Shown piece after piece: positions 31,574 through 52,380 of a DNA stretch of 53,075 nt. The stretch comes from an uncultured Granulosicoccaceae bacterium (GTDB taxonomy: Bacteria; Pseudomonadota; Gammaproteobacteria; Granulosicoccales; Granulosicoccaceae), in contig CAKZVB010000123.1 in assembly GCA_937922015.1 (NCBI GenBank), forward strand, positions 1 to 53,075, given 5' to 3'. The notes under the pieces were generated by a model that had not been told where the DNA came from, searched no databases, and was given only the letters and a program-made list of their open reading frames with translations. Position 1 is the stretch's first letter. Each line of letters begins with the position of its first letter. The position numbers were made by a program, and so were the translations under genes.

Positions 31574-31639
31574 CAGCAATGCACCTGGAAAAGATAACGC
31601 CGGGCATTGCCTACACTACAGCAGATAAGGGCTAACACG

Positions 31640-33598: not shown

Positions 33599-33601
33599 TT
33601 T

Positions 33602-34117: not shown

Positions 34118-34859
34118 TAAATCGCTGCTCGCACGCCGGCGTTTTTTGCGCAACCTTGGTTTGCTTGGTGCAACTGCTGTGTCGTCGTTTACCTTGCTCG
34201 AAGTAAAGGCCAGAGAACAGAAAGCAAACACTACAGGGGCTGTCACTGCTGAAAAACGATGGGGACTGTTAATCGATACCTCCAAATGCAGCTCAGGCTG
34301 TGATGCCTGTGTGCGTGGCTGCAATGAAGAACACGGCATCGAAAATGAAGGCAATGACGCTACCCGTGCACAATGGATAAGAAAGATAGACCTGAAGGAT
34401 AAACTCACCGGCAGCGAATCCTCTGTACCGGTGATGTGCCAGCACTGTGACTCGGCACCGTGTGTCGATGTCTGTCCAACCGGTGCCTCTTTCAAGCGGG
34501 CAGATGGCATTGTGCTGGTCAACAAGCATACTTGTATCGGTTGCCGCTACTGTATGATGGCGTGTCCCTACAAAGCGCGGTCCTTTATTCATGAGACCCT
34601 GACCAATCAAAAACCTGCCGCGCCCAGAGGAAAGGGCACTGTTGAAAGCTGCACATTGTGTGTGCACCGTGTCGACCGCTCCGAAGATCTTCAGCCAGCC
34701 TGTGCGGTAGCCTGTACCGATGAGGCGCACAGCGCGATACTTTTCGGTGATCTTAATGATCCGCAAAGCAAGCTGGCGACGAAAATGAAAGAGATTGGCG
34801 CCAGTCAGGTGCGTGCCGATCTGCAGCTAAATACCGGCGTGCGGTACCACGGATTATGA
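34083..34859 (+). CDS. dsrO: Tat-exported iron-sulfur protein DsrO
   Basis: DsrO is the periplasmic ferredoxin-like subunit of DsrMKJOP. It carries a twin-arginine signal (ARRRFLRNLGLLG near residue 17). Four cluster motifs follow: CSSGCDACVRGCNEEH, CQHCDSAPCVDVCPTG, CIGCRYCMMACPYKA and CTLCVHRVD with later CAVAC. It thereby links DsrJ to the quinone-binding DsrP. Length 258 residues. Its start lies inside the dsrJ end, so the two are coupled. Confidence 0.95.
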   Translation: MQKNNSSSPQTDKSLLARRRFLRNLGLLGATAVSSFTLLEVKAREQKANTTGAVTAEKRWGLLIDTSKCSSGCDACVRGCNEEHGIENEGNDATRAQWIRKIDLKDKLTGSESSVPVMCQHCDSAPCVDVCPTGASFKRADGIVLVNKHTCIGCRYCMMACPYKARSFIHETLTNQKPAAPRGKGTVESCTLCVHRVDRSEDLQPACAVACTDEAHSAILFGDLNDPQSKLATKMKEIGASQVRADLQLNTGVRYHGL

Positions 34860-34872
34860 ATGGTGCGCCGGT

Positions 34873-36084
34873 ATGAGTATTGATAACACAAGCTACCAGC
34901 CCCTCGGCCAAACCACGAGTGGTTATCTGTGGTTATTACTGGTGCTGTTGTTGATGAGCATAGCAGGTGGCTATTGTGCCTATAACATGGAGCATCAGGG
35001 CCACCATATCACCGGCATGACGAATCAAGTGGTGTGGGGCTTGCCGCATGTGTTTGCGGTGTCGTTGATACTGACCGCGTCGGGGGCGCTCAATGGTGCA
35101 ACGCTTGCTTCGGTGTTCGGCCTGCAGATCTACAAGCCCTATGCACGTCTGTCAGTGGCGCTTGCGATAACTTTGTTGGTTGGTGGGCTGCTGGTGCTGG
35201 TACTTGATCTTGGTCGTCCCGATCGCCTGGCAATTGCGATGACGACGTATAATTTCAGATCAATCTTTTCGTGGAATATATTTCTGTATACCGGTTTTAT
35301 ATTCCTGGGTGTGGTTTATCTGTCGACCATGCTGGATCGAAAAATTAATCGATACACCAGTCGTGTCGGTGCGCTGGTGTTTCTGTGGCGCATTGTGCTG
35401 ACCACAGGTACCGGCTGTATTTTCGGATTTCTGGTCGGACGAAGCGCTCTGGACGCGGCCATTATGGCGCCATTGTTTATCGCTCTGTCTGTTGTGATGG
35501 GCACGGCGATACTTGCGTTGGTTATGATGCTGGTGGCACGCTGGCAACGCGGGATTCTACCCGCAGCGGTCGTCAATGCCCTTGCCACATTGTTGTTCTG
35601 GTGTTTATTGACGCTGCTGTATTTTTCAGTGGTACACCATCTAAGCAACCTGTACGTGGCAGAACATCAGGCGGATGAACGCTTTGTGCTTGGTGGCCCT
35701 TTCGCAGTGTTGTTCTGGTTTGGCCATATCGTGCTGGGGGTTGTGGTGCCGTTGCTGCTGCTACAGCGCCTGCGCGGACTATCGCAACCTGCAGCTAACA
35801 AAAACACCGGGTTACTTCTGGCTGCCAGTGGCGCGGCACTGCTGGGTGGTATGGTGATGGTATACGTAATTGTTATCGGTTCCCAAACTGTCCCGCAAAC
35901 GCTTTTTCCGGGTAAGATCGTTACCGCCAGTTCGTTTGGTGATGCAGGGTTCGCGGCCTATACGCCGTCGTTGTGGGAGTGGGGGGTTGGCATGGGTGGA
36001 GTGTGTTTTTCATTGTTGCTGTTTGCGATGGTGCTAAAGCTGTTACCGCTCTGCTCTGAAGCCGCCAGCGCTGCTGTCGAATGA
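34873..36084 (+). CDS. dsrP: NrfD-like membrane protein DsrP
   Basis: DsrP is the large quinone-interacting membrane subunit of DsrMKJOP, an NrfD/PsrC-type protein without haem. It has 403 residues and about ten transmembrane helices, beginning WLLLVLLLMSIAGGYCAYNM, with family-like parts VWGLPHVFAVSLI and LDLGRPDRLAIAM. Its stop overlaps the dsrN ATG by four bases (ATGA). Together with DsrO it connects periplasmic redox carriers to the quinone pool. Confidence 0.94.
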   Translation: MSIDNTSYQPLGQTTSGYLWLLLVLLLMSIAGGYCAYNMEHQGHHITGMTNQVVWGLPHVFAVSLILTASGALNGATLASVFGLQIYKPYARLSVALAITLLVGGLLVLVLDLGRPDRLAIAMTTYNFRSIFSWNIFLYTGFIFLGVVYLSTMLDRKINRYTSRVGALVFLWRIVLTTGTGCIFGFLVGRSALDAAIMAPLFIALSVVMGTAILALVMMLVARWQRGILPAAVVNALATLLFWCLLTLLYFSVVHHLSNLYVAEHQADERFVLGGPFAVLFWFGHIVLGVVVPLLLLQRLRGLSQPAANKNTGLLLAASGAALLGGMVMVYVIVIGSQTVPQTLFPGKIVTASSFGDAGFAAYTPSLWEWGVGMGGVCFSLLLFAMVLKLLPLCSEAASAAVE

Positions 36085-37457
36085 CTGATGCCGGCGACGC
36101 GGACGTGGCCACCTCCGGGTATTTGATTTCGGCACCGTGGCGATCAAGTGGCAAAACCGCAGTCACCATGGGCCTGGCACGCGCGGCGCAGCGTCGAAAA
36201 CTGACTGTGCAGACTTTTAAAAAGGGCCCGGACTACATTGATCCGCTATGGTTGGGGGCAGCCAGCGGTCGCGGTTGTTACAACCTTGACCCGTGGCTGC
36301 AAGCTGACGATGAACTTCTAACCACGTTTAACAAAGCCTCCCCCGGCGCGTTATCACTGGTCGAAGGTACGATGGGTTTGCACGATGGCCTGCAGAGCGA
36401 TGGCTCGGACAGCAATGCCGCGATAGCCCGCCTGCTCAAGTTGCCGGTCATACTGGTGGTAGACTGTCGCGGAATGCACCGAACCGTGGCAGCGTTGATA
36501 AACGGTATCCAGCAGTTTGACTCACAGGTACGGTATGCAGGCGTGATTCTTAACCGCCTCCGCTCCGATCGGCATGCGCACAAGATCCGCACGGCGTTGC
36601 GCGATCATTGCGACATCAAACTGCTGGGTGAAATACCGGAAGCTGACAGCATACATATCGAGGAAAAACAGCTCGGGCTGATGCCGGCTCCCGAACTAAA
36701 TCGCTACAGCCGGCAAATCGACAACGCTGCAGATTTGATTTCAGCCAACTGTGATTTGGCGGATATTTTTAGCAATACAGAAACCGCAACCGCTGCAGAT
36801 GAAGCATCCCTGTCCGCAACGGTGGTTCGTGGTAAAAAGATCAGGGTCGGCGTAGCACAAGACGAGGCGTTCCATTTTTACTATCAGGATGATCTGGACA
36901 CGCTGCGCGAACGAGGTGTGGAGCTGATTGTACTTTCACCGTTGCGTGATAAATTTCCAGACAATCTTGACGGATTGCTGATTGGTGGTGGTTTCCCCGA
37001 ACGCTACGCTGAAGCCTTAATGCAAAATCGCTTTTTTCGCGAGTCGTTGAGTACGGCCATCCACAGTGGTCTGGTAGTACATGCAGAGTGTGGTGGATTA
37101 ATGTATCTGTGCAGAAGCCTGATACTGGACGATGGTGTTTTTGATATGGTAGGTGTGTTCGACGCCGATGTCACTATGTGCGAAAAACCACAGGGCCGCG
37201 GTTATATGAAGCTGCGACACCTGCACGATGACAGCGCTATTGCAGCGCATGAGTTTCATCATTCAAGCATCTCCTTTGATCAGCCGTTGCCCTATACCTA
37301 TGCGGTGGAACGGGGCTACGGTATCGACGGTGAGCATGACGGGGTCATTTTCGCCAATACCTATGCCAGCTATGCGCACTTCAGACATACCCGTGCATCG
37401 CCGTGGATAGACGGCCTGATGGACAGAATTAAACAACAGAACAACCGGCACGGTTAG
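36081..37457 (+). CDS. dsrN: Siroheme amidase DsrN (CobB/CbiA family)
   Basis: DsrN resembles cobyrinate a,c-diamide synthase. In dsr clusters it converts siroheme to its amide, the true prosthetic group of DsrAB, using glutamine and ATP. The N-terminal P-loop region SAPWRSSGKTAVTMGLARA and KKGPDYIDPLW bind ATP and substrate. The C-terminal class I glutamine amidotransferase-like domain holds the Cys nucleophile in HAECGGLMYLC and a His in YASYAHFRH. Length 458 residues fits. It complements the CbiX chelatase encoded upstream of dsrA. Confidence 0.94.
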   Translation: MTDAGDADVATSGYLISAPWRSSGKTAVTMGLARAAQRRKLTVQTFKKGPDYIDPLWLGAASGRGCYNLDPWLQADDELLTTFNKASPGALSLVEGTMGLHDGLQSDGSDSNAAIARLLKLPVILVVDCRGMHRTVAALINGIQQFDSQVRYAGVILNRLRSDRHAHKIRTALRDHCDIKLLGEIPEADSIHIEEKQLGLMPAPELNRYSRQIDNAADLISANCDLADIFSNTETATAADEASLSATVVRGKKIRVGVAQDEAFHFYYQDDLDTLRERGVELIVLSPLRDKFPDNLDGLLIGGGFPERYAEALMQNRFFRESLSTAIHSGLVVHAECGGLMYLCRSLILDDGVFDMVGVFDADVTMCEKPQGRGYMKLRHLHDDSAIAAHEFHHSSISFDQPLPYTYAVERGYGIDGEHDGVIFANTYASYAHFRHTRASPWIDGLMDRIKQQNNRHG

Positions 37458-39397: not shown

Positions 39398-40078
39398 ATG
39401 TCAAGGGTAAGTCTTGTCGTTGTAGATGATCACACCTTGTTTCGCACCGGGCTGTACGAGTTGCTGACACGCAGACAGCTTGATGTGCTGGGAATGACAG
39501 GACAGGCGCAGGAAGCGCTTGAGCTGGTTACTCAACATCGTCCCGATATCGTGCTTTTGGATCTGCGCATGGGAGAGATCGGTGGTCTCGCTATCCTGCG
39601 GGACATTCGCAAACATTTTCCTGAACAGCGTGTTGTTATCCTGACCACAAGTATCGAAGAAAACGACGTGCTCAGAGCGTTAAAGCTTGGTGCTGTCGGC
39701 TACCTGTTAAAAGACATGGACCCTGACAATCTGGTTGATCTTTTAAAACGCGCCAGAGACGGAGAGACAGTCGTCGCGCAGGAATTCACCGGCTTACTGG
39801 CGCGGGCGGCAGTGTACAAAGGCGAGCTCGATACAACACCCAACAAAAACGTCTATAAACTCACCCCCAGAGAGATGGATATACTTCGCCATATTGCCAA
39901 AGGTGAAAGCAATAAACATATAGCGAGTGAGCTTGGCATCGTTGACGGCACCGTAAAACTTCATGTGCGTGCCGTTCTGAAGAAGCTTGGTGTGCAAACG
40001 CGGGTGCAGGCAGCGTTGCTGGCAGTGGCCGAGCGCTTGTGTGATGAAGCTGACTCTGGCTCAGGTGAGCAAAACTAG
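39398..40078 (+). CDS. NarL/FixJ-type response regulator
   Basis: This 226-residue regulator has an N-terminal receiver domain with the acidic pair DD at 10-11, phosphorylation Asp55 in IVLLDLRMG, and the conserved Lys in GYLLKDMD. The C-terminal LuxR-type helix-turn-helix (about 150-212) shows LTPREMDILRHIAKGESNKHIASELG and VKLHVRAVLKKLG in pieces. It is the partner of the kinase 3 bases upstream. Binding near dsrA or its own operon is expected but no site was identified. The gene ends the plus-strand dsr transcription unit. Confidence 0.92.
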   Translation: MSRVSLVVVDDHTLFRTGLYELLTRRQLDVLGMTGQAQEALELVTQHRPDIVLLDLRMGEIGGLAILRDIRKHFPEQRVVILTTSIEENDVLRALKLGAVGYLLKDMDPDNLVDLLKRARDGETVVAQEFTGLLARAAVYKGELDTTPNKNVYKLTPREMDILRHIAKGESNKHIASELGIVDGTVKLHVRAVLKKLGVQTRVQAALLAVAERLCDEADSGSGEQN

Positions 40079-40116
40079 ATAACCTGATACACACAGCAGG
40101 TCAACTGTGATAAATC

Positions 40117-40153
40117 AATTTGCAAGCCTTCAATAAATCATCTGAAGCAAATT
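40117..40153. terminator. Hairpin between the convergent dsr and polymer-export operons
   Basis: AATTTG at 40117-40122 pairs with CAAATT at 40148-40153, and CTTCA at 40128-40132 with TGAAG at 40143-40147 inside it. The 80-base gap between two facing operons suggests a shared terminator, with AT-rich flanks on both sides. The stem is moderate and bulged. Confidence 0.45.
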
Positions 40154-40158
40154 CCAGA

Positions 40159-42177
40159 CTAGAAATCATAACTCAAATCGACCGCACCATAATAGGCGGA
40201 AGCATCTGGTTGCTCCGCCCCTTTTCCTGCTTCAAAGAAACCCGCTGACAATGTAATCGACCAGTCCTCGCTTTCTTCATAGCTGACAACCACGTCCAGC
40301 GCCTGACCGATCTCCTTATTCGTGGCGGTCAGAGTTAAGTCCAGTGAAGAATCTCTAAGTTCAGTAGTAGCATTGCGCTGTTGATATTCATGGTACATAA
40401 AGGCAAGGTAGCTGGATGACTTCAACGGAAAAGTAATTCCAGCTGTTTTTATTTGCAGGTTTGATAATTCAGGGTCCAGTACCAACCCGTAAAACGATAA
40501 ATCCGTGGCACTGCCAATGTCGGCGGAATTGCCCTGTAAACCGGTTTGCCTGTAACTTTCATCAGTACCATCACCGGGGTCAGAATCCTTTGAGGTGCCG
40601 GCGACTGAAATAGTAAATTCAGGTTTACCGGGCAGATTGGTCCACCAGGTAGCGCCCAGATCGTAGCCCCAGCCGCGTACACGACCATCGCTCTCCAGTT
40701 GTTGTGTAGACACACCGGCATCATCTTCATCGGTAATAAAGATCTGTTCATTGCCTGAAACAGATCCGATATCGATCCAGTAGTCGAGCTGGTTGTCGTT
40801 ATTTCTCCAAAGACTGCCGTTTGATCGTGCGCCAATCCAGTTAAGATCGGAGGTGACGTCGTCAGTAGCCGCAGATTCGTCTTTTAGGCCCGTCAGAAAT
40901 ATTGACAAGCGATGAAATTCACTTAGCTGATGTGAATACTCGCCTATCCATCGATAAATCGGATCATCTTCAGGTTCAAAAAACTCGCTCCAGAAACCAT
41001 TTTGTGTTTCTACTCCAAGACCAAAAGACAGGTTCCAGTGCCCGGTTGATAAGCTGGTGCCAATCAGATCAAGGGTACTATCGAACATCCAGCCTCTTTC
41101 TTCCGAGATCGACTGAGTACCAAGTGTTACATCGCCGGAGTAAATGTCACTAGTGAATAAAAATTGCAGATAGCTTTCATCAGCTTCAATGGTTGATTCA
41201 ACCTCATTTATCGGAATTGAAAGCTCCAGGATGCCGGACAACATCTGAGTAAAATTGTACTGTAGGCTAATAGCCAGATCTGCTGTTGAGTCGGAAGATC
41301 GACTGCTGGCGGTATTGCTGAAGGAATTGTTAGTAGCTTCTCTGGAGACGCTAAGCTCAACCGCAAAATCCGGATCCGCTACACTATCATCGTCTTCCGT
41401 ATTTTCGTTTTTTTCTGCCGAAACCGGAAGTTCAGTGACCACTTTCTCAACATCACTGTGTGTGATCGGAACTGATGTTACAGGTGCATCTTCACTCACC
41501 GCATTTGCAGATTCCCGTTCCGATTCAGGATCTGCAGTTTGTGTTGGAATACCTTCGTTCTGTGCTGTAACCGGTGTTGGGATATTTGTGACCTTTTGAT
41601 CAGCCTCCGGTGACAGTGCAGGCTTGTCGACAATCTGCCTCTTGGTTTCAGCATCGTCAATCGATGCTGCTACTTTAGAATCCGTTATATTCTGCTCGTC
41701 GGCGGAATCTGTACTTTGAGTGGTCATTGAGTTTGATTGGGGCTCAGGAGATCCGGCAGCTATGCCGGTGTTAGTCGAACTCACCTCTTCTAACATAACT
41801 GTTGGCACCGTTGACGTTACTGATGTAGCGGTGCCCGGTGAAGGCTTCACCCCGGCGGGTGGTTGCATGTCACGTCTGAGGTCTTTTTGTTTCTTTATCG
41901 CTTGTAGAAGAGCCTGATCCACGGTTTCAAGCATCTCTTCAGTCAAGCCTTGCGCGTTGACCAGAAAGTACAGCGTAGCCATTGCCGTTCTTAAGTCATT
42001 TTGACTTAGTCGCTCTTGTGCGTACGCCCAATAGGTGTTGATTTGATCTTCTGTCAGCAATCTGGCGGATTTGCGGATTTGTGGATTAACATCGGGATTA
42101 TTCTGTTGTGCATGCCCTGAAACTGCCACCAGACTGCATATTCCTGCTATACCAAGCGAGGATAAAGTGTTGCGCAT
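40159..42177 (-). CDS. AlgE-like outer-membrane polymer exporter with N-terminal helical and disordered parts
   Basis: This 672-residue protein has a Sec signal peptide (cut near GHAQ, residue 24), a helical region of about 80 residues (EDQINTYWAYAQERLSQND and onward), a disordered Thr/Ser/Glu-rich linker (about 110-270), and a C-terminal beta-barrel ending in the aromatic DLSYDF. The barrel's last third recalls AlgE, the alginate exporter of Pseudomonas: GYDLGATWW, YRQTGLQGNSADIG, FYGLVLDPELSNLQI, YHEYQQRNA and LRDSSLDL. It begins eight bases after the polymer-synthetase stop, so it is probably the exit channel for that product. AlgE passes a polyanion; here the cargo is predicted to be polycationic, and the linker and barrel are rich in acidic residues. 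Homology is by eye. Confidence 0.75.
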   Translation of the reverse strand: MRNTLSSLGIAGICSLVAVSGHAQQNNPDVNPQIRKSARLLTEDQINTYWAYAQERLSQNDLRTAMATLYFLVNAQGLTEEMLETVDQALLQAIKKQKDLRRDMQPPAGVKPSPGTATSVTSTVPTVMLEEVSSTNTGIAAGSPEPQSNSMTTQSTDSADEQNITDSKVAASIDDAETKRQIVDKPALSPEADQKVTNIPTPVTAQNEGIPTQTADPESERESANAVSEDAPVTSVPITHSDVEKVVTELPVSAEKNENTEDDDSVADPDFAVELSVSREATNNSFSNTASSRSSDSTADLAISLQYNFTQMLSGILELSIPINEVESTIEADESYLQFLFTSDIYSGDVTLGTQSISEERGWMFDSTLDLIGTSLSTGHWNLSFGLGVETQNGFWSEFFEPEDDPIYRWIGEYSHQLSEFHRLSIFLTGLKDESAATDDVTSDLNWIGARSNGSLWRNNDNQLDYWIDIGSVSGNEQIFITDEDDAGVSTQQLESDGRVRGWGYDLGATWWTNLPGKPEFTISVAGTSKDSDPGDGTDESYRQTGLQGNSADIGSATDLSFYGLVLDPELSNLQIKTAGITFPLKSSSYLAFMYHEYQQRNATTELRDSSLDLTLTATNKEIGQALDVVVSYEESEDWSITLSAGFFEAGKGAEQPDASAYYGAVDLSYDF

Positions 42178-42185
42178 GTTCTAAT

Positions 42186-45100
42186 TTATCCCGCTGCTGC
42201 CGATCGTGGGACTTCCTCAGTGAATCGACGGTTGAGGCGTCCTCTTAAAGCGGGCGGAGCTGATTTGATAGCAACCTGATCGGCTAGTTGTTTGGCAGGG
42301 TTTCCACCCCACACAGTGTTTTCCGGCACTGAACTTCCCTTCATCAAAAAGGAATCCGCCGCAATTGTCGAACCGTCCTGGATTATCGTCCCGTAGTGAA
42401 TAAACGCTCCAACACCCAAATTACAACGATTGCCGATTATTACTCGATCCGATTTGAATACAGCGTCTTCCATTGAGTGTGCCTGAACAATTGAGTGTAC
42501 ATCTAAACAACAATCATCACCGATACTGACCAGACCGGGTTCGGGAAACGAACACCCTGCATCGTATACTCTTTGTCCGACGTTTAATCCACGCAGGCGC
42601 TGAAACCACGGTTTCAACGCGGTGCCGTTAAATAGTTCAATGAGCGGATTTTCATTCATTTTCCAATAGCGTTCATGTTTCCAGAACGGTTTTTCGTAAA
42701 TCGAACAATAGCGAGGTCGTAAGCTGTTAAATCCCGTGGCTATACGTTCGAATAGAATAGTGTAGAAAATAGCGAATAACATTCCTGCAATACCACTTAC
42801 CAGCAGCACAGTGGACTGAACCGATACGACGGGATAACTATGGAGCAAACTAATTACCTGTACAGCAATCAACGATAGGAAAAATAGTAGTGTGCACGAT
42901 TTAAAAAAGAACAGGCCTAGCGTTCGCAGATTGGAAAACAATTTCAGACGAATACATTTTCGAAGTAAATCCGGGTTCTTGTACTGCTCAAACTGCTGAT
43001 CGCGATCAACACTCCGGGGTATTTCAAAAGGGGGTGAGCCCAGAATGCCGGTATCACTTCGAACCGGCCCGTCTATGGGTATCATCGCCTTAGTACCGAT
43101 CAGGCAATTATTACCAATTTTCGCACCTGTTGGGTAATAGATGTCATTGCCAAGAAATGTGTTTTCCGGAACATTTATCGCCCCCAGTTTAAAGGTGGTA
43201 TGAGAAATATCAATGTTCTTCATTGTGAGGCCATCTGCAACCATTGCGTTTTTGCTGAAACTGCACATAAACGGTGTATTGTGTTGCTGCTGCACACCGG
43301 CATTTGATCCGGTTTGAACAACGCCTTTCATTCCGTACCCAATCGCCTTGAAGTAATACATGATCAGTGAACTGTCACCAAATATTCTATTGAGGTAGGT
43401 GGAATTACTAAAACGGGCCATCCACACACTTAAGGCGTACTGAATACCGAATAACGGTGAAGATTTATTGGTTTGAAGGAAATATCTAATAATTCGAGGT
43501 ATTGCTGTCACAGATATACAGGCCAGAACTATACCGAGGAAATAGAAAAACACAGTAGTGGAAAACAACCATGTAATATTTGAGGGCGATATGTGTGGCA
43601 ACAGTATTGCGCTACGAGGTGCCAGATAATCAATAAGCAAAAACACGAATGGCGCTAAAAATATCCCGGGAACCACTAAAAATGCAGTATAGATCCACCG
43701 ACGCCAGGCACCAAAATCAATTTCATCTGATTTAATAAAATCAGTAGCTACCGGCTCTGCAGGTGAGCCTTGATAATTTTGTCCTGAGCGCAGTGTCTGA
43801 TTTCTATACACCACAGAGTTATTACCCAATTGAATATTATCCTCTAGTGTCGAACCCGCGTCTAACACACAAACCGGTGACACAAACACATTATCACCTA
43901 TAGTGATTGGACCGGGTATAATGTATCCGTTGCGTACCGTGCGTGCGGCCATATAAACCTTTTCCCGAATCATGGTGTTGCTGCCCACTGAGACCAGGTC
44001 CGGAAACGTTGGAGCCCCTGTCATTATTGTGGTGTTTTTGCCAATCCGCACGCCGATCATCCGCAGATAGATTACATGAAGTGGCAGGCCCACGAAGGCG
44101 TTTAACGGATTGCCACTGATCGCAATCCCCGCCACCCATAACTTTAGATGCTTCGCTGTCCAAAGGGGAATTGGCTTGTCGTCACACTTGCCCATCACCA
44201 ACCACTTCAATCCCCAGAAAAACAGTATACTCGATAGAAACATGAAGTTTGTGTAGGCAAACGCGTATTGATATTTGGCAGTGAAGGTCTCGACGCTGGC
44301 CAGCCAATGCAGCCCGAAGACGAGCACAATTATGCCTGCAAAACTCAGTAACACTCCTATAGAGATTTGGATGACACTAAACAACGCATACCTGAGATTA
44401 CTGACTTTGTGTTGAGGTAAGCCATCAACTATGTCTGCGTACTGCCCGGGAAAGCCCGCTGGTTTTTCCGCACAATAGCGATTTGGAGAAGCCGCCAGCT
44501 TCTCGACAGTCGGATTCTGATACACATTCTTTAACGACAGACAAACATCTGGAATAGACTTGTTTACAGCGGCTACAAACTGAGCCATCGACAGTGAATT
44601 AGCGCCCAGATCTGTAAAGAAATGAGCCGTGGCGGATACGCGGTCGAGTTGCAGCAGGTCTGCCATTTGCTGCGCTAATTCTGCCTGCAGCCCCGTAGTT
44701 GGTGCCTGGTATACCTGCCCGGAGGATTGGCGTCTCTGAAGTGAAGGCTCGGGCAGTGATTTACGATCGACTTTGCCGCTGGGTAGAACCGGGAAATCAG
44801 CCAGTACCTCAATAAACGCTGGTACCATATAAACCGGCATATGTTCACGCAGGGTGCTTTCCAGTACATCGAGCGTATCCTCGGTATGGTCTTCGCTGTA
44901 GCTGACAAACAACACCAGTTCTTTATCACCTGCCGGCATATCCACCGGTGTAGTTACGGCCAACGATATACCGCAAACACTCATCGCCATCGATTCAATC
45001 TCTTCGAGCTCAATGCGGTAGCCACGAATCTTCACCTGGGTATCTATCCTGCCAAGATAATCTATGGTGTAGTCTTCGTTTATCCGACCAAGGTCACCTG

Positions 45101-46385
45101 TTCTGTACAATTTTTGACCGGGGTTATCGGGCAGTCCGATAAAATCATCGACGAATACTGAATCTGTTTTTTCAGGAAGGTTCAGGTAGCCGTTTGCTAC
45201 ACCGATGCCTGCTATCGCTATTTCACCGATTTGACCCTGCGCAAGCGCGTGTTGTTCGCCCGGCGAGAGTATTACCACAGAATAGGATGGCAGGGGTCCG
45301 CCAATCGTTACAGTGCCTTGAGTAGACATTACCTGCCAGGTAGCGGTGACAGTGGCCTCCGTAGGTCCGTAGGTATTCAGCATTCGTCTGCCGTTACCAG
45401 CCCAGCGTTGTGCCAGTGGCTGTGGACAGGCTTCGCCGGACACCATGATAAATCGAAGTCGCGGTAGATCCGTTGTTACTGTCGCTAACAGCGTCGGTGT
45501 GCAACACAATGCGGATATACGTTTCTCTATTAGAAATTCAGCAAGATCATCGCCCACTAAACTCACGTCGGACGGGGCGGGTACCAGCGTCGCACCAACC
45601 AGTAAGGGTAACCATATCTCTTCGAAAGAAAAATCGAATGCGATAGTGAGGCCCTGATATACCCGATCGCTTTCCATATAGCCGTAGGTTGCGCGGGCTA
45701 CTCTGAGAAAATTACTGATATTACTGTGTGTAATTGGCACGCCTTTGGGGCGGCCGGTAGAGCCGGAGGTATAGATAATATAAGCTAACGAAGATTCACA
45801 AATCTCAATAGAGACTCGATCCGTTGGCATTGCCGCGATCTTTGATTTTGCATGGTCAATTATGATGGTTCTTGTTTTAGTATTGAACAATGAGTCCGCG
45901 AGCACACTGACAGTTAATAGACGGGTTGCTTCGCTGTCTTCCATAATAAATTCGATGCGCTCTATCGGGAAACTTTTATCAAGCGGTACAAAAGTCGCTC
46001 CGGCTTTCATGACACCTAATATTGATGCATAGGAATAGATAGATCGATCAAACAAAAGCCCGATACGGTCTCCGGTTTTAACTCCGTCATCGATTAGAAA
46101 TCGTGCAATTTGGTTACCCAGGTAATCAAGTGCAGAAAAACTGTATTGCTCGGTATCGTACTCTATGGCTGTTTTAGCAGCGGCACGCTGTTGCCCGAGC
46201 GAATCACAATATTTTTCAAATAACTTATGAGCAGTGTTTGTAGAAGATGGATGAAGGTCAAGCACATTGCTATTGCTGACAAGCACCGGGGCATCATACA
46301 GTTCGGGGCGAAGGGCGTGATGCAGGGTCGGATGTCTTTCCAGCTTCCAGGCTGGGTGAAAATATTCTTGTACTTCAGTATTCAT
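42186..46385 (-). CDS. Membrane NRPS-like homopoly(amino acid) synthetase, epsilon-poly-lysine-synthetase type
   Basis: This 1399-residue protein matches the architecture of Pls, the epsilon-poly-L-lysine synthetase. An adenylation domain (about 50-560) holds YIIYTSGSTGRPKG, NTYGPTEATV and the lysine motif SGKVDRK. A carrier domain has LGANSLS with the pantetheinyl Ser near residue 596. Then three left-handed beta-helix domains (about 750-870, 1010-1130, 1255-1375), each rich in I-G hexapeptide turns, are each preceded by a pair of transmembrane helices, six in all. There is no condensation domain of standard type and no thioesterase. Aligned by hand to PheA, the binding pocket reads D-F-E-C-M-S-T-V-T; the acidic third position suits a basic amino acid. 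With an EctB-type gene upstream, 2,4-diaminobutyrate is the likely monomer. Confidence 0.85.
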   Translation of the reverse strand: MNTEVQEYFHPAWKLERHPTLHHALRPELYDAPVLVSNSNVLDLHPSSTNTAHKLFEKYCDSLGQQRAAAKTAIEYDTEQYSFSALDYLGNQIARFLIDDGVKTGDRIGLLFDRSIYSYASILGVMKAGATFVPLDKSFPIERIEFIMEDSEATRLLTVSVLADSLFNTKTRTIIIDHAKSKIAAMPTDRVSIEICESSLAYIIYTSGSTGRPKGVPITHSNISNFLRVARATYGYMESDRVYQGLTIAFDFSFEEIWLPLLVGATLVPAPSDVSLVGDDLAEFLIEKRISALCCTPTLLATVTTDLPRLRFIMVSGEACPQPLAQRWAGNGRRMLNTYGPTEATVTATWQVMSTQGTVTIGGPLPSYSVVILSPGEQHALAQGQIGEIAIAGIGVANGYLNLPEKTDSVFVDDFIGLPDNPGQKLYRTGDLGRINEDYTIDYLGRIDTQVKIRGYRIELEEIESMAMSVCGISLAVTTPVDMPAGDKELVLFVSYSEDHTEDTLDVLESTLREHMPVYMVPAFIEVLADFPVLPSGKVDRKSLPEPSLQRRQSSGQVYQAPTTGLQAELAQQMADLLQLDRVSATAHFFTDLGANSLSMAQFVAAVNKSIPDVCLSLKNVYQNPTVEKLAASPNRYCAEKPAGFPGQYADIVDGLPQHKVSNLRYALFSVIQISIGVLLSFAGIIVLVFGLHWLASVETFTAKYQYAFAYTNFMFLSSILFFWGLKWLVMGKCDDKPIPLWTAKHLKLWVAGIAISGNPLNAFVGLPLHVIYLRMIGVRIGKNTTIMTGAPTFPDLVSVGSNTMIREKVYMAARTVRNGYIIPGPITIGDNVFVSPVCVLDAGSTLEDNIQLGNNSVVYRNQTLRSGQNYQGSPAEPVATDFIKSDEIDFGAWRRWIYTAFLVVPGIFLAPFVFLLIDYLAPRSAILLPHISPSNITWLFSTTVFFYFLGIVLACISVTAIPRIIRYFLQTNKSSPLFGIQYALSVWMARFSNSTYLNRIFGDSSLIMYYFKAIGYGMKGVVQTGSNAGVQQQHNTPFMCSFSKNAMVADGLTMKNIDISHTTFKLGAINVPENTFLGNDIYYPTGAKIGNNCLIGTKAMIPIDGPVRSDTGILGSPPFEIPRSVDRDQQFEQYKNPDLLRKCIRLKLFSNLRTLGLFFFKSCTLLFFLSLIAVQVISLLHSYPVVSVQSTVLLVSGIAGMLFAIFYTILFERIATGFNSLRPRYCSIYEKPFWKHERYWKMNENPLIELFNGTALKPWFQRLRGLNVGQRVYDAGCSFPEPGLVSIGDDCCLDVHSIVQAHSMEDAVFKSDRVIIGNRCNLGVGAFIHYGTIIQDGSTIAADSFLMKGSSVPENTVWGGNPAKQLADQVAIKSAPPALRGRLNRRFTEEVPRSAAAG

Positions 46386-46485
46386 CGCTACAATCCTTGT
46401 CGATAAGTAAGTACTACTAGCTCGCGTTATTCATGAGGATTCGCCATTCAGCGGCCAAGTTGATCAAAATAGGGGTGCAAAACAG

Positions 46486-46541
46486 GTCGCTTGATCGAGC
46501 GAGAAACGTGGCTAGCCACGTGCCGAGCTTGATCAGGCGAG
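46486..46541. repeat. 56-base imperfect inverted repeat with perfect 16-base core
   Basis: The core ACGTGGCTAGCCACGT (46506-46521) is a perfect palindrome. The arms extend to 28 bases each with 21 of 28 positions complementary. It lies in the 289-base gap between the aminotransferase and the synthetase, about 100 bases upstream of the synthetase start. A strong RNA hairpin here could act as an attenuator or as a transcript-processing site, or the DNA could be a regulator site. No T-tract follows. Confidence 0.7.
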
Positions 46542-46674
46542 ATGTGCAGCAATATTTTCGTCTGATGGTGAATAGACACACTGTCATTTTAAAAACTGCA
46601 CCTAAATCTGTGTTTGGAGCTATGTCTATAGATATTTCGTTAAATTTATCCCGTCGTCTTGTGAATAATGCGGG

Positions 46675-47991
46675 CTAGATGGCTTGTTGCAACACGACCT
46701 CCTGTCTAACCGGCGGCGTCGGGCTGGCGATGTCTTTGTGAAAAACCAGATTCAAGCAATGTTCAAGAATTTCAAGCCCCTCATCTATCAACTCATCAGA
46801 CGTGGTGATGGGCATAAACAGTTTTATGACTTCATCTTGCGGACCGGAGCGTTCTATTATCAAGCCTTGTTCAAATGCAAGCTTCGTAACTCGAGCGGCC
46901 TTGTCAGGATCAGCGCACAGCAGGCCTCGCATCATGCCCCGTCCTTTGCTTTTTACGATATCGCCCTGATGTTTGATAATCTGTCTTGTTAACCAATCGT
47001 CAATGCGTGTACTTTGTATCGCAATGTTGTTGCTGAGCTCAGAGTTTTTCCAATAGGTTTCAATCGCCGCTGCCGCAGTCACAAAAGCGTGGTTGTTACC
47101 ACGAAAAGTACCGTTGTGCTCGGCGGGTCTCCATTGGTCCAGAGAGCGTTTTATCAACACCGCTGACAGTGGTAATCCAAAACCGGAGAACGACTTCGAC
47201 AAGGTAACGATATCCGGTTGTATTTTTGCCGGTTCGAAACTAAAGAAAGTGCCGGTGCGACCACAGCCGGCCTGGATGTCATCCACGATCAAAAGTATCT
47301 CGTGCGCTTTGCAAATATATTCCAGTTTCCTGAGCCAGGCGTTGCTTGCCGCGTTCAATCCGCCTTCGCCCTGAACTGTTTCCAGTAACACCGCTGCCGG
47401 CATTTCCAGTCCACTGGACTTATCGTTCAGGACATGTGAAAAATACTCAAGTGAATTGATTGCACCGTTCATGTAACCGTCATATGGCATGAATGTGGTG
47501 CCTGTGAGCGGTAGTCCGGCAGCACTACGATTGTATTGATTGCCTGTCGCCGCCAGCGCTCCCAGAGAAACACCATGGTATCCGTTGGTGAAGCACACTA
47601 TATTTGTTCTGCCCGTCACTTTGCGGGCAAGTTTCATAGCCGACTCAACAGCGTTGGCACCTGTAGGCCCGGTGAACTGAACAACATAATCGAGCCCGCG
47701 CGGCCGTAGTAGTAGATCTGACATTACTTGCAGCAAACGCTCTTTGGACGCAGTTTGCATGTCGAGCCCCTGCGCGATTGAGTCGTTTGTTATGTATTCA
47801 ATGAGCGGCGCTTTCAGAGCCGGCGGGTTGTGGCCATAGTTGAGTGATCCACAGCCAGCCAGAAAATCGATGTATCTCTTTCCGTCAGTACTCCAGATCT
47901 CGGATCCGATCGCCTTTGAAAAAGTGGCTGGATAGGCCCGACTGTAACTTCGTGATTCGGACTCGAGTGATTCAAATATAGAATAAACCAT
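46675..47991 (-). CDS. EctB-type L-2,4-diaminobutyrate:2-oxoglutarate aminotransferase
   Basis: This 438-residue PLP enzyme is a class III aminotransferase closely resembling EctB, which turns aspartate-semialdehyde into L-2,4-diaminobutyrate with glutamate as amino donor. Recognisable parts are FESLESESRSYSRAYPATF, LNYGHNPPALK, QFTGPTGANAVESAMKLARK, the catalytic-lysine region TLSKSFSGFGLPL, IVDDIQAGCGRTGTFFSFE and EHNGTFRGNNHAFVT. AAGGAG lies ten bases before ATG. In ectoine operons ectA and ectC flank ectB; neither is present here, so the diaminobutyrate is probably meant for the synthetase encoded next on the same strand. A poorly conserved 25-residue tail follows the domain. Confidence 0.9.
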   Translation of the reverse strand: MVYSIFESLESESRSYSRAYPATFSKAIGSEIWSTDGKRYIDFLAGCGSLNYGHNPPALKAPLIEYITNDSIAQGLDMQTASKERLLQVMSDLLLRPRGLDYVVQFTGPTGANAVESAMKLARKVTGRTNIVCFTNGYHGVSLGALAATGNQYNRSAAGLPLTGTTFMPYDGYMNGAINSLEYFSHVLNDKSSGLEMPAAVLLETVQGEGGLNAASNAWLRKLEYICKAHEILLIVDDIQAGCGRTGTFFSFEPAKIQPDIVTLSKSFSGFGLPLSAVLIKRSLDQWRPAEHNGTFRGNNHAFVTAAAAIETYWKNSELSNNIAIQSTRIDDWLTRQIIKHQGDIVKSKGRGMMRGLLCADPDKAARVTKLAFEQGLIIERSGPQDEVIKLFMPITTSDELIDEGLEILEHCLNLVFHKDIASPTPPVRQEVVLQQAI

Positions 47992-48417
47992 GTTCGTTAC
48001 TTCTCCTTGTATGATTAAAAAATATAATCAGGAACGGTGGTCCCGGATACCGTCTTTTCCTCCCAACGTACAAATAGTAAAGCCAGGGACATCTGAACTT
48101 GGCAGCTAAACTAGCACTGGGAAATTCAATGAGCTATTACCCATTAGAGTTAATACTTTTATCGAACTAAAAATAGTCATATTGGAAGTGACAGGGTAGA
48201 TCGATTCTAAAAGTGCTATTTATAAGCGATATTTAAAGGAATACGCTGGTTGAGAAGATCAGCTAAGTGGAGGATGTCGGGTTATCAACTACTGGAATGT
48301 CACTGTTGATATACATTGTGGTATGACGGTAATGTGTTGTAAAAATTGCGATGGCGTATAGACTGATAGTCGCTGAAGGGGAATTCTAAAACGGCTAATA
48401 GTTGAGAAGCGGTTTGT
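47992..48417. other. 426-base upstream region of the diaminobutyrate/polymer operon
   Basis: The stretch is AT-rich compared with its surroundings and has no convincing gene. It must hold the promoter of the aminotransferase gene. The inverted repeat TGATTA/TAATCA (48012-48030) lies 20 bases before the ATG, inside the leader. ACGGT/ACCGT (48035-48054) forms another small stem. No clear sigma-70 or sigma-54 element could be fixed. Confidence 0.45.
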
Positions 48418-49095
48418 TCAGGCCTGCATCAACGCCGAATAAATTCCAAAGACACCTACAACAATCAGGCTTAACGCCCAGACAATATCAAGGTTAAACC
48501 AGCTTTTGGAAATGAACTTCAGGCCCAGCCAGAAATAGACTATTGACGCGACAACTCCACCAGCAAGGGTCATTGCCAGTGTATGTGCGGTAGCGACTGC
48601 AAGAGCGTTCATTATATTGCCGCGCATCAACAGACCGGCCGCCTGATGACCTGCGTCACCGTTCATGCCGCTGTCAATGCCACAAATACCCAGGTAGACA
48701 GGCACAAGCATTAGTCCTGCGCCGTGCGCCATCGCCGCCAGAAAAGACCAAAGAGCCAGCCGGGCAGGGTGTACGCGTGACAGAAATCTGGGGTGACGCC
48801 GGTTTATCAGTAAATAGACGCCCATAGCGATCACAATGATACCTGCACCAATGCGTAGTTCTTTTTCCCAGGTAAGGAGCGCTGTCATTAATGAGAATGG
48901 CAACAGTATGGCCAGCATAGCTACAAAGTGCCCAAGCGCAAGCAGACCAAGCGCTTTAGGAAGCGCCCGATGTCTTCCTTCCATAAGGCCCGCAGATACC
49001 GCCAGTGGCCAGCCCATGCCCGGGTTAACGCCGTGATAAACCCCTGATAAAATAACGGCCCACCACAGGACCGTTATCGATGCGTCTTCTAACAT
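48418..49095 (-). CDS. Uncharacterised multi-pass membrane protein, 225 residues
   Basis: I do not recognise this family with confidence. It has about six transmembrane helices. Histidine-bearing motifs sit in or near helices: SGVYHGVNPGMGWPLAVSAGL near residue 20, LGHFVAM near 55, AAMAHGAGLMLVP near 120 and ATAHTLAMTLAGG near 170. This pattern recalls metal or small-solute transporters of the NicO/UreH type. It starts seven bases after the methanethiol-oxidase-like gene, so they are co-transcribed. Supplying or exporting a metal or sulfur compound for that enzyme is a guess. Confidence 0.7.
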   Translation of the reverse strand: MLEDASITVLWWAVILSGVYHGVNPGMGWPLAVSAGLMEGRHRALPKALGLLALGHFVAMLAILLPFSLMTALLTWEKELRIGAGIIVIAMGVYLLINRRHPRFLSRVHPARLALWSFLAAMAHGAGLMLVPVYLGICGIDSGMNGDAGHQAAGLLMRGNIMNALAVATAHTLAMTLAGGVVASIVYFWLGLKFISKSWFNLDIVWALSLIVVGVFGIYSALMQA

Positions 49096-49101: not shown

Positions 49102-50502
49102 TTAGATATTCGGATAACAAAAGCTGTCAGTGGAACAATCGCCGCCTTCGAGCCGTATCTGGTGACTTCGATACCCTTCAGGAAAGTCGATATAAAAATC
49201 CTTATCCAGCGTTAAGCCGCCATTCTCGCCCACGTTCGCCATCACCATCTGACCGCCTGAATCATTCGGGTAGAATTGATCATCCCATGTCGAGTAGAGC
49301 GAGTTGGTCCAGTAGACGCGCTTGCCGTCACGACTTATTTCAAGCATCTGCGGCCCGTAGGCAAAGTCTTTGCCGTTGGCGTGTTTATGTTTTGCGACTA
49401 TGCCGCCCAGTTCAACTTTACCGGTCAACACCGGGTTCATCGGGTCTGTGACATCGTACTGGTGTAGCTCGCCCAGTCCCCAGCAGGCAACGTATAGATA
49501 TTTATCGTCCAGACTGAGGTCGATGTCAGTCACCAGTGGGGGCACAGCTGCAAATCCTTTTAACAAATCCGGCAGGTCGTCAGCATCTGCAGGAACAGGG
49601 TCGATGGTGATGGTTTTCTTTGACTGCCAAACGCCGTCATCATCACGCCACCAGGTGAATACAGATCCCTGTAAGTTAGTAGTGTCGACAACAACGCCAC
49701 AGAAGCCATATGATTTTGACGGATCGTGTGCCGGGCGCACCTCCAATGCCATTTGATGGTTTTCACCAAAGTCTATGGTCTGAATGTTTTTGCGCTTGCG
49801 TAAATCCCAAAAATGAATCGAGTGACCATATTTATTGCTAAGCAGGTCTTCAGGGACGATGCCATTCTCAAATTGCGGAGGCAGACCCCATTCAGAGCTG
49901 ACCATATAATCCTGAGGTAGGTTCCACCAGAAGTCGTAGTGTTTGTCCTGTGCTCCACGATCCATTTCATAGCGACCAATGATCTCAAAGGTTTCACAAT
50001 CCATAATAAATATACCCGGTGGTCCATCAGTGCCGTCCGGTCCGCCGCCGCCAAGTGTGGATACATAGATGCCCTCGGGTCCGCAATGGATCGTATGCGG
50101 GCGCGAGTAGCCTGTTTTTTCGAACAGTTCCTCTGGTTCAATAGTCTTGTGTATCTTTGCATTTAGCGGATCTTTAACATCGATCACGTATATCCGTGAA
50201 GAGCGAATGCCCGGAACAATCAAATAACGACGTTCGAGGAAAGCGTGCCCCGACATCGGTGATAATGCTGACGAACAGGCGTTCCATCCGAAGTGGTGGA
50301 ACTCGTCGCCCTTGTTAGGGACGATCACCTGATGCACGATCTGTCCGTAGGTTTTTGATTTTTTATCCAGATCAATGACGGCAATACCGTCAGATTTAGA
50401 ACCGTCGGGGCTAAGCATTACTGTAAAGCCGTAGTTCTCTACAGGCGCTTGCATAGCAAGCATGGCTGTGGCATGGAATGTAGGGTCCGGTCTCATGGTC
50501 AT
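49102..50502 (-). CDS. mtoX: SBP56-family methanethiol oxidase
   Basis: This 466-residue protein belongs to the selenium-binding-protein (SBP56) family, whose bacterial members oxidise methanethiol to formaldehyde, hydrogen peroxide and sulfide using copper. The beta-propeller hallmarks are present: DEFHHFGWNACSSA, SRPHTIHCGPEG, YDFWWNLPQDYMVSSEWG, VTDIDLSLDDKYLYVACWG and RSHQIRLEGGDCSTDSFCYPN, the conserved C-terminus with cysteines. From ATG 50502, preceded by GAGAG, no signal peptide is seen, whereas characterised MtoX is periplasmic. The longer frame from 50592 gives no signal peptide either. The usual SCO1 and MauG-type neighbours are absent. Released sulfide could feed the sulfur-oxidation genes. 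Confidence 0.85.
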   Translation of the reverse strand: MTMRPDPTFHATAMLAMQAPVENYGFTVMLSPDGSKSDGIAVIDLDKKSKTYGQIVHQVIVPNKGDEFHHFGWNACSSALSPMSGHAFLERRYLIVPGIRSSRIYVIDVKDPLNAKIHKTIEPEELFEKTGYSRPHTIHCGPEGIYVSTLGGGGPDGTDGPPGIFIMDCETFEIIGRYEMDRGAQDKHYDFWWNLPQDYMVSSEWGLPPQFENGIVPEDLLSNKYGHSIHFWDLRKRKNIQTIDFGENHQMALEVRPAHDPSKSYGFCGVVVDTTNLQGSVFTWWRDDDGVWQSKKTITIDPVPADADDLPDLLKGFAAVPPLVTDIDLSLDDKYLYVACWGLGELHQYDVTDPMNPVLTGKVELGGIVAKHKHANGKDFAYGPQMLEISRDGKRVYWTNSLYSTWDDQFYPNDSGGQMVMANVGENGGLTLDKDFYIDFPEGYRSHQIRLEGGDCSTDSFCYPNI

Positions 50503-50652
50503 TGTATTTTCTCTCGCGTTTGGTTTGTCGGTTGTTAAAAATACAGCTGTTAAAAGCCCTGTTTCAGTAGAATGTGATACCCATGTGATCATATTTTTTA
50601 AAATGCATAAACAATAGGTAGCCAGGCCTGCGCCTGGCTACCGCCTGATCAT

Positions 50653-52380
50653 CTAGCTTTGATTAGCGCGTATACCATCGCGTATCAGCGCTTTCAAAAG
50701 GGAGAAACCCATCAGGATCATTATCAATGAAAAAGGAATAGCGCCAATAATCATTGCTGCTTGTATAGCGTTTAGTCCTCCTGCCAGAAGTAATGCGGCT
50801 ATGACTGCGGTGAGAATAAGTCCCCATATAAGGATATGGCTTTTTCCGGCAGTTCCGGCTTCTCCACCGGCATTGATTGTGTTAACCACCAGTACCGCCG
50901 AATCTGCAGAGGTGACCAGATAGGTAAGCAGGAGAATTACGATCAGCACTGACATCGCTGTGGCAAGGTTTGAGGACAGCATTATGTTGATTACTTCGTA
51001 CAACTGTGCAGTCAGGCTTTTTGCGTAAATCTGGCCATCGGCTGTGCCGCTTAATTCCAGATCGATGGCGGTGCCGCCCAACAGTGAAAACCATAGAAAA
51101 CACATCAGCGATGGTGCGATGATAGCGCCCACGGCAAACTCACGTATGGTCCGGTTTTTTGAAATCCGTGCCAGAAAGATTCCGACAAACGGGGCAAATG
51201 CTATCCACCAGGCCCAGTAAAAAATAGACCACCAACCCTGCCATTCACCCGGGCTGCCCGCGCCTTCGGCAGGAAACACGTTTAACGTTAATGCGGGGAG
51301 ATGAATGATATAGCTGAATATACCTTTGCCAAGCAGGGTCAGCGCAAACATGGTTGAGCCGAAGATCAAAAAGAACGCCAACAGGCTGAACGATAACACC
51401 ATGTTGATGTTACTGAGCCACTTTATCCCTTTGCCAACCCCTGACAATGCAGACAAGGTAGAACACACCATAACGACGGCCAGCGCCACAAGTAATGATC
51501 CGGTGGTTGGCTCACCATCTTTCATCAGCCATTGTGCACCGGTGATGTTGAATAAGCCTGAAGAGAAGGACGCCAGTCCCAGACCAATCGTTTGAGCAAT
51601 GCCGAGAATGGTCGCTACAACTGCGGTGATATCGACAACATGGCCCAGTGGCCCCTCGAGTTTTTTACCAAAAAGTGGTGCCAGCGTTGATCGAATCGTG
51701 AGTGGCAGTCCGCGTGAGTAGCTAAAGAATGCCAGTGAAATACCCACCAGTGCATAACATGACCAGGCACCGAAACCCCAGTGCAGAAAAGAATAGCGAT
51801 ACACCGAATCAACCGTAGATAGCGTTTTGGGTTCAACCAGATTCGCAATAGCGGGAATTGATCCTGCCTCTGTTTGTGATTTGTAGAAAGTCCAGATATC
51901 GGCCCCTTCCGGTATGCTGATACTGGCAGCTGCCAGTGCGTCCTTGATGGCAATTGCACTCAGGCGTACATCGGGGTTGTCAGCCATGTGCCACATCGGT
52001 TCGCCTGTCGCATAACCAAGCATCCCGATACCGATACCGGCGCCAAACATCATGGAGAACCAGGAAAAGTTAGAGAATTCCGGCACGCCGTCCGGAGTGC
52101 CCAGTTTGGTTTTCCCCCATTTGGGAACCACCGCGACGAGGACACAAACAGCAATGAAAAAAGCGACAGCGTATGTGTAGTAGTAGTTCAGGTGATTAAA
52201 AGACCAGGTTTTTAGATCACCCAGAACTTTTCCTGCCGCTTCCGGGTCTATAACAGCCCAGATCACAATAAGTGCAATGATGACTTTTGATGTCAACGCG
52301 ACAGCGTTATTAAAACCTTTATAGAAGCCACTAGTAGAAAGCCCGATATCGAGCTCTCTTAGAGGTTGTTTAATAGCCAT
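50653..52380 (-). CDS. BCCT-family betaine/choline/DMSP-type transporter
   Basis: This 575-residue sodium- or proton-coupled carrier belongs to the betaine-choline-carnitine transporter family with twelve membrane helices. The signature GWWSIFYWAWWIAFAPFVG and the following ARISKNRTIREF lie near residues 385-415, with the substrate-box glycines in MMFGAGIGIGMLGYATGEP near residue 115. Substrates are quaternary ammonium or sulfonium osmolytes such as glycine betaine or DMSP. The gene next to a methanethiol oxidase makes DMSP, whose demethylation releases methanethiol, a tempting cargo, but the aromatic box alone does not prove it. Confidence 0.9.
   Translation of the reverse strand: MAIKQPLRELDIGLSTSGFYKGFNNAVALTSKVIIALIVIWAVIDPEAAGKVLGDLKTWSFNHLNYYYTYAVAFFIAVCVLVAVVPKWGKTKLGTPDGVPEFSNFSWFSMMFGAGIGIGMLGYATGEPMWHMADNPDVRLSAIAIKDALAAASISIPEGADIWTFYKSQTEAGSIPAIANLVEPKTLSTVDSVYRYSFLHWGFGAWSCYALVGISLAFFSYSRGLPLTIRSTLAPLFGKKLEGPLGHVVDITAVVATILGIAQTIGLGLASFSSGLFNITGAQWLMKDGEPTTGSLLVALAVVMVCSTLSALSGVGKGIKWLSNINMVLSFSLLAFFLIFGSTMFALTLLGKGIFSYIIHLPALTLNVFPAEGAGSPGEWQGWWSIFYWAWWIAFAPFVGIFLARISKNRTIREFAVGAIIAPSLMCFLWFSLLGGTAIDLELSGTADGQIYAKSLTAQLYEVINIMLSSNLATAMSVLIVILLLTYLVTSADSAVLVVNTINAGGEAGTAGKSHILIWGLILTAVIAALLLAGGLNAIQAAMIIGAIPFSLIMILMGFSLLKALIRDGIRANQS

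Follow-up and report, generated by a model that had tools for sequence, protein, structure and literature searches.

A putative three-gene operon for a cationic poly(amino acid) and its outer-membrane exit in an uncultured Granulosicoccaceae bacterium

In a 53,075-nucleotide stretch of DNA from an uncultured Granulosicoccaceae bacterium (hereafter the window; contig CAKZVB010000123.1 of assembly GCA_937922015.1), three genes on the minus strand encode, in order of use, an EctB-type diaminobutyrate transaminase, a membrane-bound homopolymer synthetase of the Pls/PosA family (Pls), and an outer-membrane beta-barrel protein of the AlgE family. Judging from the sequence, we consider it probable that they form a dedicated operon whose product is a secreted, cationic homopolymer joined by isopeptide bonds, with gamma-poly-L-2,4-diaminobutyrate as the most likely identity and the barrel as the exit. 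The succession of 2,4-diaminobutyrate (Dab) monomer, Pls polymer, and outer-membrane exit appears to be the best fit to the specificity code of Pls, to the gene neighborhood, and to the comparison with other loci, and it is partly supported by them. More tentatively, these genes may exemplify a distinct Gram-negative secretion route for cationic poly(amino acid)s, in which a Dab transaminase and a membrane homopolymer synthetase are combined with a dedicated barrel. On this view, no fewer than three families (AlgE-like, LbtU-like, and Porin_4) would have supplied the barrel independently of one another, and its electrostatics would have been re-tuned, in one lineage through a scarcity of basic residues in an AlgE-type pore and in another through Glu/Asp-rich segments in a porin.

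The three-gene locus and its synthetase

An earlier reading of this DNA from its letters and open reading frames (ORFs), here called the original prediction, had proposed the trio and its order of use, and the ORFs and curated family scores confirmed coordinates, common strand, and order (Table 1). EctB scored 622.8 bits with the equivalog model TIGR02407 (cut-off, 552.2), and among solved structures it came closest to Dab transaminases (E value of 3.8e-150); when the five other class III aminotransferases of the genome were compared with it, one showed 30% identity and four gave no match at an E value of 1e-20. Pls exceeded the curated cut-offs both of TIGR02353, which covers the terminal domain (495.9 versus 423.1 bits), and of TIGR01733, which covers amino acid adenylation (368.8 versus 317.4), and a carrier domain is also present. 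The AlphaFold2 model of the C-terminal 760 residues, built from Pls and nine relatives (mean predicted local distance difference test score [pLDDT], 77.7; predicted template modeling score, 0.80), places six long membrane helices as three pairs beside three beta-helix-like stretches, and the best Foldseek matches of the model are maltose O-acetyltransferases. Domain matches, model, and Foldseek thus bear out the predicted architecture of an adenylation-thiolation (A-T) module with six helices and three beta-helix domains.

The ten-position specificity code of Pls, obtained by aligning the enzyme with its relatives, reads DFECMSTVTK, the positions having been located through what we take to be the motifs of GrsA. 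The same extraction returned DLEDIGTVVK and DSECYGGVTK in other loci, and loci with the code DMEHNGTVSK match eight named residues of PosA, the synthetase of Acinetobacter baumannii. Since both codes are printed, and the eight residues named, in the PosA report (PMC10522769), we consider the extraction trustworthy. According to that report, position 2 sets the chain length of the substrate, being Phe in diaminopropionate (Dap) and Dab enzymes, Met in the ornithine enzyme, and Ala in the lysine enzyme. The window Pls follows the Pls/PosA rule, with Asp at position 1, Glu at position 3, and the chain-length residue between them (DFE), and its code, as aligned, is of the published Dap/Dab class.

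The same trio, in the same order and on one strand, occurs on CALLBO010000025.1 (locus L058, genome G381), which belongs to a Granulosicoccaceae metagenome-assembled genome of a second species of the window's genus, so that the presence of the trio in relatives, on which the original prediction depended, was verified. Between the two species, identity is 74% for EctB, 64% for Pls, and 44% over 391 residues for the barrel. Full-length Pls was found in 2 of the 48 genomes of the order, both from this genus. Within the class, 369 genomes yielded 9 with Pls at an E value of 1e-30 (8 over the family cut-off), and within the phylum, 398 genomes yielded 27 at 1e-60 (26 over the cut-off); the window's own genome is included in the counts for class and phylum. 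A different class of the phylum, sampled with 385 genomes, gave five with a Pls match; three of these were new genomes, and none was of the type with Ser at code position 6 (Ser-6). With the Pls homologues of A. baumannii, the window Pls shares about 27% identity.

EctB and barrels beside Pls loci

The comparison set comprised 44 Gram-negative Pls loci without Ser-6, namely, those fetched, close relatives included, and it is not a census; L129 (contig end), L131 (no Pls frame), and L049 and L057 (too little downstream sequence) were dropped from it. Pls matches occurred in 52 plasmid records. The 14 of these that were fetched comprise one actinobacterial locus (L104) and 13 Gram-negative ones, in which the Ser-6 type is represented by two Skermanella loci (L096 and L097). 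EctB, taken from the ORF list in the window and from tblastn elsewhere, adjoins Pls in six of the seven Gram-negative loci whose code has Phe at position 2 and Ser at position 6 (Phe-2/Ser-6), i.e., the window, L052, L058, L060, L096, and L097; in the seventh, L059 of Paracoccus, the contig starts 97 bases before pls. By tblastn, EctB stands beside Pls in none of the 44 loci without Ser-6, two 25% matches to other aminotransferases having been set aside (L123, within the 44, and L131, outside them). Chance neighborhood of the three genes was rejected, because the trio is kept in the second species and because of this absence of EctB from the other loci. EctB also adjoins Pls in the actinobacterial L068 and, in broken frames, in L066; the Ser-6 loci with no EctB in view are L059 and the actinobacterial L104 and L061.

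An outer-membrane barrel lies within three genes of Pls in five of the seven Gram-negative Phe-2/Ser-6 loci, with three families in three lineages. In particular, the two Skermanella plasmid loci read ectB, pls, small gene, S41 peptidase, and porin, the porin (L096, 11833-14091; L097, 11871-13562) belonging to Porin_4 and carrying very long Glu/Asp-rich segments at its N terminus and between its two Porin_4 matches, from which net charges of -184 and -134 arise. In the plasmid collection, this porin was found at these two loci only (E value of 1e-8, with the low-complexity filter of BLAST on). In L052, which belongs to the window's class, ectB and pls are followed by a gene whose product falls into the LbtU siderophore-porin family (116.1 bits; cut-off, 90) and, by BLASTP, does not resemble the barrel of the window (best E value, 1.4). 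L059 encodes, 1.6 kb downstream, a small protein with a barrel-like match (27.5 bits; cut-off, 24), which was left uncounted. Unexpectedly, the AlgE-like barrel accompanies Pls at the window and L058, and barrels of other families take its place in the other Dab-type loci that have one. S41-family peptidases occur near Dab-type Pls in two lineages (L096, 10472-11851; L097, 10409-11815; L052, 8836-10062, here convergent to the LbtU-family gene), possibly for processing or protection.

Downstream of the 44 loci, we scanned the 124 ORFs that lie on the strand of Pls, within 3 kb past it, and measure 180 to 999 residues; they come from 41 loci, since L051, L099, and L115 have no ORFs of the scanned length; ORFs of 1,000 residues or more were excluded. 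No outer-membrane barrel family occurs among the 25 of 68 families listed for these ORFs, where phosphopantetheinyl transferases rank first with 13 members, and none of the 124 pairs an aromatic C terminus with a strongly hydrophobic N-terminal stretch; the absence of barrels beside the 44 loci rests on these 25 families and on this crude filter. Fisher's test for a barrel beside Ser-6 versus other Pls gave 9e-6 by locus, a value inflated by related loci, and 0.009 by a rough lineage grouping (3/5 versus 0/15). The occurrence of three barrel families at the same place suggests a common need for a pore.

The window barrel scored 75.8 bits with PF13372 (cut-off, 25.2) and, in a phmmer search of solved structures, matched AlgE only, with E values of 1.5e-15 for the whole protein and 7.1e-16 for the barrel alone. 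Its N terminus comprises, judged by eye, a signal peptide and helices, followed by the acidic linker and the barrel, and the L058 protein starts instead with a weakly LysM-like region (17.5 bits). PF13372 is common in the class (59 of 229 genomes) and is therefore no sign of Pls by itself; moreover, one member (L150) gave no AlgE match, so that not every member is close to AlgE. When 369 genomes of the class were searched, 14 had relatives of the window barrel, and among these the window's own alone also has Pls.

The AlgE ring (Lys47, Arg74, Arg129, Arg152, Asp162, Asn164, Arg353, Arg362, Arg459, and Arg485) is reported to select polyanionic alginate (PMC4118822). Lys47, Arg74, Arg459, and Arg485 fall outside the alignable part of the barrels, and all four alignable arginines, Arg129, Arg152, Arg353, and Arg362, are absent from both Pls-linked AlgE-like barrels, which present Asp333, Ser356, Ser551, and Asp559 in the window and Gly, Ser, Ser, and Gly in L058; Asp162 is retained in both. 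The original prediction of an AlgE-like barrel stood as to homology, by PF13372 and phmmer, and the label of AlgE-type exporter has to be qualified, given the absence of the alignable ring arginines. For comparison, 14 relatives were taken from 13 genomes, all without a Pls match. Arg150 of AlgE is kept in all 14 and replaced by Thr in both Pls-linked barrels (Thr354 in the window). Over the matched region, each of the latter has 16 Lys and Arg residues, versus 21 to 40 in the relatives and 33 in AlgE, and both are more acidic in net charge than AlgE and 12 of the 14 relatives. These counts make no use of a looser comparison of PF13372 loci, in which L164 and L165 had misread frames and L161 was the window itself.

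Several observations weigh against the proposed exit. Two relatives are more acidic overall than the Pls-linked barrels, and three (L194 to L196), which rank by E value among the closest, also have no basic residue at the four ring positions, at which the other 11 retain at least one. The second PF13372 barrel of the genome is likewise poor in basic residues (5.5%, versus 4.6% in the Pls-linked barrel domain; acidic residues, 10.3% versus 16.3%), and lineage or habitat may explain part of the charge shift. The most acidic 40-residue stretches of the window linker and of the L058 protein are within the range of the control barrels, all 14 of which are exceeded by L052 and the Skermanella porins only. 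Hence, both the acidic linker as a mark of every Pls-linked barrel and the ring-arginine loss as special to these barrels were weakened as candidate signatures. The barrel model, built from two sequences, has a pLDDT of 26.8, and the pore lining was judged from sequence. Finally, no barrel was seen in the ORF list of the Dinoroseobacter locus L060, where one downstream protein was scanned, so that an adjacent barrel is not obligatory, and PosA is reported to be a single-gene locus with no co-transcribed neighbors in A. baumannii (PMC10522769).

From these points comes the first alternative, which we regard as unlikely: EctB and Pls would make poly-Dab, and the barrel would be a receptor, an uptake porin, or a surface anchor, the polymer leaving otherwise or staying in the envelope. 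It gains from L060 and from the solitary PosA, as well as from the LbtU and Porin_4 barrels, since neither family is named as one of exporters, and the ring-arginine loss in three barrels unlinked to Pls makes it more likely and secretion through the barrel less so. However, the window barrel is related to an export family and starts 8 bp past pls, its few basic residues and the loss of an arginine kept throughout the family fit a cationic cargo, and three barrel families occupy the same position.

Substrate and monomer supply

Dap and Dab enzymes are reported to be difficult to distinguish from sequence, and Ser-6 also occurs in the published beta-lysine code DGESISVVNK (PMC10522769); the window code by itself does not separate Dap from Dab, and both points weigh against the proposed polymer. 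In a quick tree of 29 rows, the Phe-2/Ser-6 enzymes form one group (Shimodaira-Hasegawa approximate likelihood ratio, 90), which spans Gammaproteobacteria, Alphaproteobacteria, and Actinomycetota and adjoins the DFEALG group. The adjoining EctB favors Dab over Dap. A polymer of another diamino acid (Dap), or a short or mixed peptide, with EctB serving it partly, would accord with the closeness of the two classes of enzyme; we consider it improbable, given that EctB is the Dab enzyme and accompanies Pls of the Phe-2/Ser-6 type both in Gram-negative loci and in L068, which is actinobacterial.

The DFEALG group is the second Gram-negative Phe-2 group of Pls, with the code DFEALGTVTK or DFEALGTITK (L098 to L103, L105 to L108, L111, and L113); it has no EctB nearby, and its four annotated loci adjoin an acetyltransferase and/or a phosphopantetheinyl transferase. 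Another Pls homologue, in a 1.8-Mb genome of the same phylum (L143, 8230-12183), has the unusual code DFEHSGTCSK.

As regards ectoine, its synthase EctC gave no match in the window genome, which is 80.6% complete, and was matched in 18 of the 48 genomes of the order, so that no ectoine role is visible for EctB, and an ectoine pathway was rejected on the absence of the EctC match. That EctB serves compatible-solute metabolism and stands beside Pls by chance is very improbable: its identity to plasmid genes annotated as ectB reaches 58%, and the sister species G381, which carries the trio, has an EctC-like gene, but EctB is absent from the 12 kb fetched around that gene, and the pairing of EctB with Pls recurs in other Gram-negatives and in an actinobacterium. 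More generally, EctC-like genes occur in 11 of the 14 genomes of the genus (G374 to G386, e.g., L180), with no EctB around the 8 whose surroundings were fetched. Lastly, the idea of a barrel that serves an alginate-like polysaccharide as its exporter and is only a neighbor of Pls draws on the homology to AlgE and is hardly credible, the alginate operon having been rejected because the alignable ring arginines are absent and no alginate synthesis gene was recognized among the window neighbors scanned (the genome at large was not searched), and the pairing is kept in two species at the barrel identity given above.

Proposed pathway, genomic context, and known systems

Returning to the operon for a secreted poly-Dab, we infer substrate, polymer, L configuration, direction of transport, and biological role alike. 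In this scheme, EctB would transaminate aspartate semialdehyde to L-Dab, and Pls would adenylate Dab and load it onto its own carrier domain, for which a phosphopantetheinyl transferase would be needed; two candidate genes for the latter occur in the window genome. The membrane-set triple beta-helix domain of Pls would then join Dab iteratively by isopeptide bonds at the inner membrane, and the AlgE-family barrel would pass the polycation across the outer membrane, to which a pore poor in basic residues and devoid of the arginines by which AlgE is fitted for a polyanion, alginate, would be adapted. The L form is assumed because no PddB-like racemase lies among the neighbors scanned. Once exported, the polycation might bind DNA or acidic polysaccharide in the biofilm, as Pel is said to do to judge from a reference title, or it might have a surface role or act as an antimicrobial against competitors.

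Table 1. Features of the trio in the window (aa, amino acids; bases or comments in the last column)
Feature	Positions	Strand	Basis or comment
ectB-type diaminobutyrate--2-oxoglutarate transaminase, 438 aa	46675..47991	-	TIGR02407; putative monomer supply
Pls/PosA-family membrane homopolymer synthetase, nonribosomal peptide synthetase-like, 1399 aa	42186..46385	-	TIGR02353, TIGR01733
Pls adenylation domain, about aa 67-544, code DFECMSTVTK	44754..46187	-	PF00501; code by alignment
Pls carrier (T) domain, aa 569-632, LGANSL serine motif (read from sequence)	44490..44681	-	PF00550, 31 bits
Pls C-terminal polymerisation domain (predicted), aa 672-1364	42294..44372	-	TIGR02353, AlphaFold2 model, Foldseek
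AlgE-family outer-membrane beta-barrel protein, 672 aa	40159..42177	-	PF13372; AlgE structure match
Acidic linker of the barrel protein, aa 100-279, net -11.7 per 100	41341..41880	-	Charge count
Barrel proper, aa 280-672	40162..41340	-	Alignments with AlgE
ectB-pls gap with imperfect inverted repeat	46386..46674	-	Repeat at 46482-46545

The genes of the trio are 289 bp (ectB-pls) and 8 bp (pls-barrel) apart, and the larger gap, whose inverted repeat has two 32-nt arms (75%), may hold a promoter or operator of its own. Across positions 40000-48500, promoter-like sites fell below the shuffled controls, and in the same scan terminator-like sites exceeded them. The window is contig C123 of a 5.03-Mb assembly in 332 contigs. 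Upstream, on the plus strand, lies a dsr sulfur-metabolism cluster (25160-37457) with dsrA, dsrB, dsrK, and dsrO over the model cut-offs, a dsrM-like gene below its cut-off, a PRK12771 protein, which we take to be DsrL and which would then point to oxidation, and a cobB-type gene, presumably encoding DsrN. The label of sulfur oxidizer in the original prediction is therefore plausible by the four dsr models. A BCCT-family transporter, 73% identical between the two species, lies near the trio in both, on opposite sides (window, 50653-52380; L058, 7832-9607), and an SBP56-family protein (49102-50592; PF05694, 572.7 bits) matches the model of the methanethiol oxidase MtoX weakly (115.8 against a cut-off of 650).

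Gram-negative Pls-type synthetases, an actinobacterial Dab transaminase with its synthetase, and AlgE as an exporter are known already, and the recurrent outer-membrane exit for a poly(amino acid) appears to be the new part: in searches of open-licence PubMed Central, we found no account of a barrel in the outer membrane that goes with a Pls-type synthetase, and the main text of PMC10522769 contains neither the words outer membrane, export, and periplasm nor any beginning with secret. How a membrane-active polycation passes the outer membrane of its own producer is a question that the locus makes testable with three genes, and the Skermanella loci, being from named strains with complete plasmid sequences, are usable as a test system. 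If the proposal is true, poly(amino acid)s would join the polymers having their own outer-membrane pores, and one barrel family would offer a natural comparison between a polyanion (AlgE) and a polycation.

Among the known systems, PosA makes delta-poly-L-ornithine, has widespread homologues and three left-handed beta-helices, and yields a product whose synthetic 12-mer is antifungal (PMC10522769). It resembles the window Pls in its Gram-negative host, its A-T-membrane architecture, and its six helices and, different from it, is an ornithine enzyme with Met at code position 2; the view in the original prediction that Pls-type synthetases are known from actinobacteria only had been outdated by its description in 2023. 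The pdd system of Streptoalloteichus hindustanus, which makes gamma-poly-D-Dab, also couples a Dab transaminase (PddC) with a membrane-bound synthetase (PddA), and, different from the window, it is actinobacterial and includes the racemase PddB and the aspartate kinase PddD (PMC8225329). Pfam families of the PddB and PddD types were absent from the window neighbors scanned, the search not being genome-wide. A Dab transaminase together with a Pls-type enzyme was therefore known before, and the claim in the original prediction that pairing such a synthetase with an AlgE-type exporter is undescribed appears to stand. AlgE of Pseudomonas aeruginosa is a homologous barrel sharing Asp162 with that of the window, which differs in having Asp, Ser, Ser, and Asp for the four alignable ring arginines and Thr for Arg150, and in having no recognized alginate gene among the neighbors scanned. 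Finally, PelB/PelC of P. aeruginosa, different in its 16-stranded barrel of another kind, its PelC ring, and its polysaccharide cargo, is alike in principle and sets a precedent, since there a cationic polymer takes an anionic path across the outer membrane (PMC12141448).

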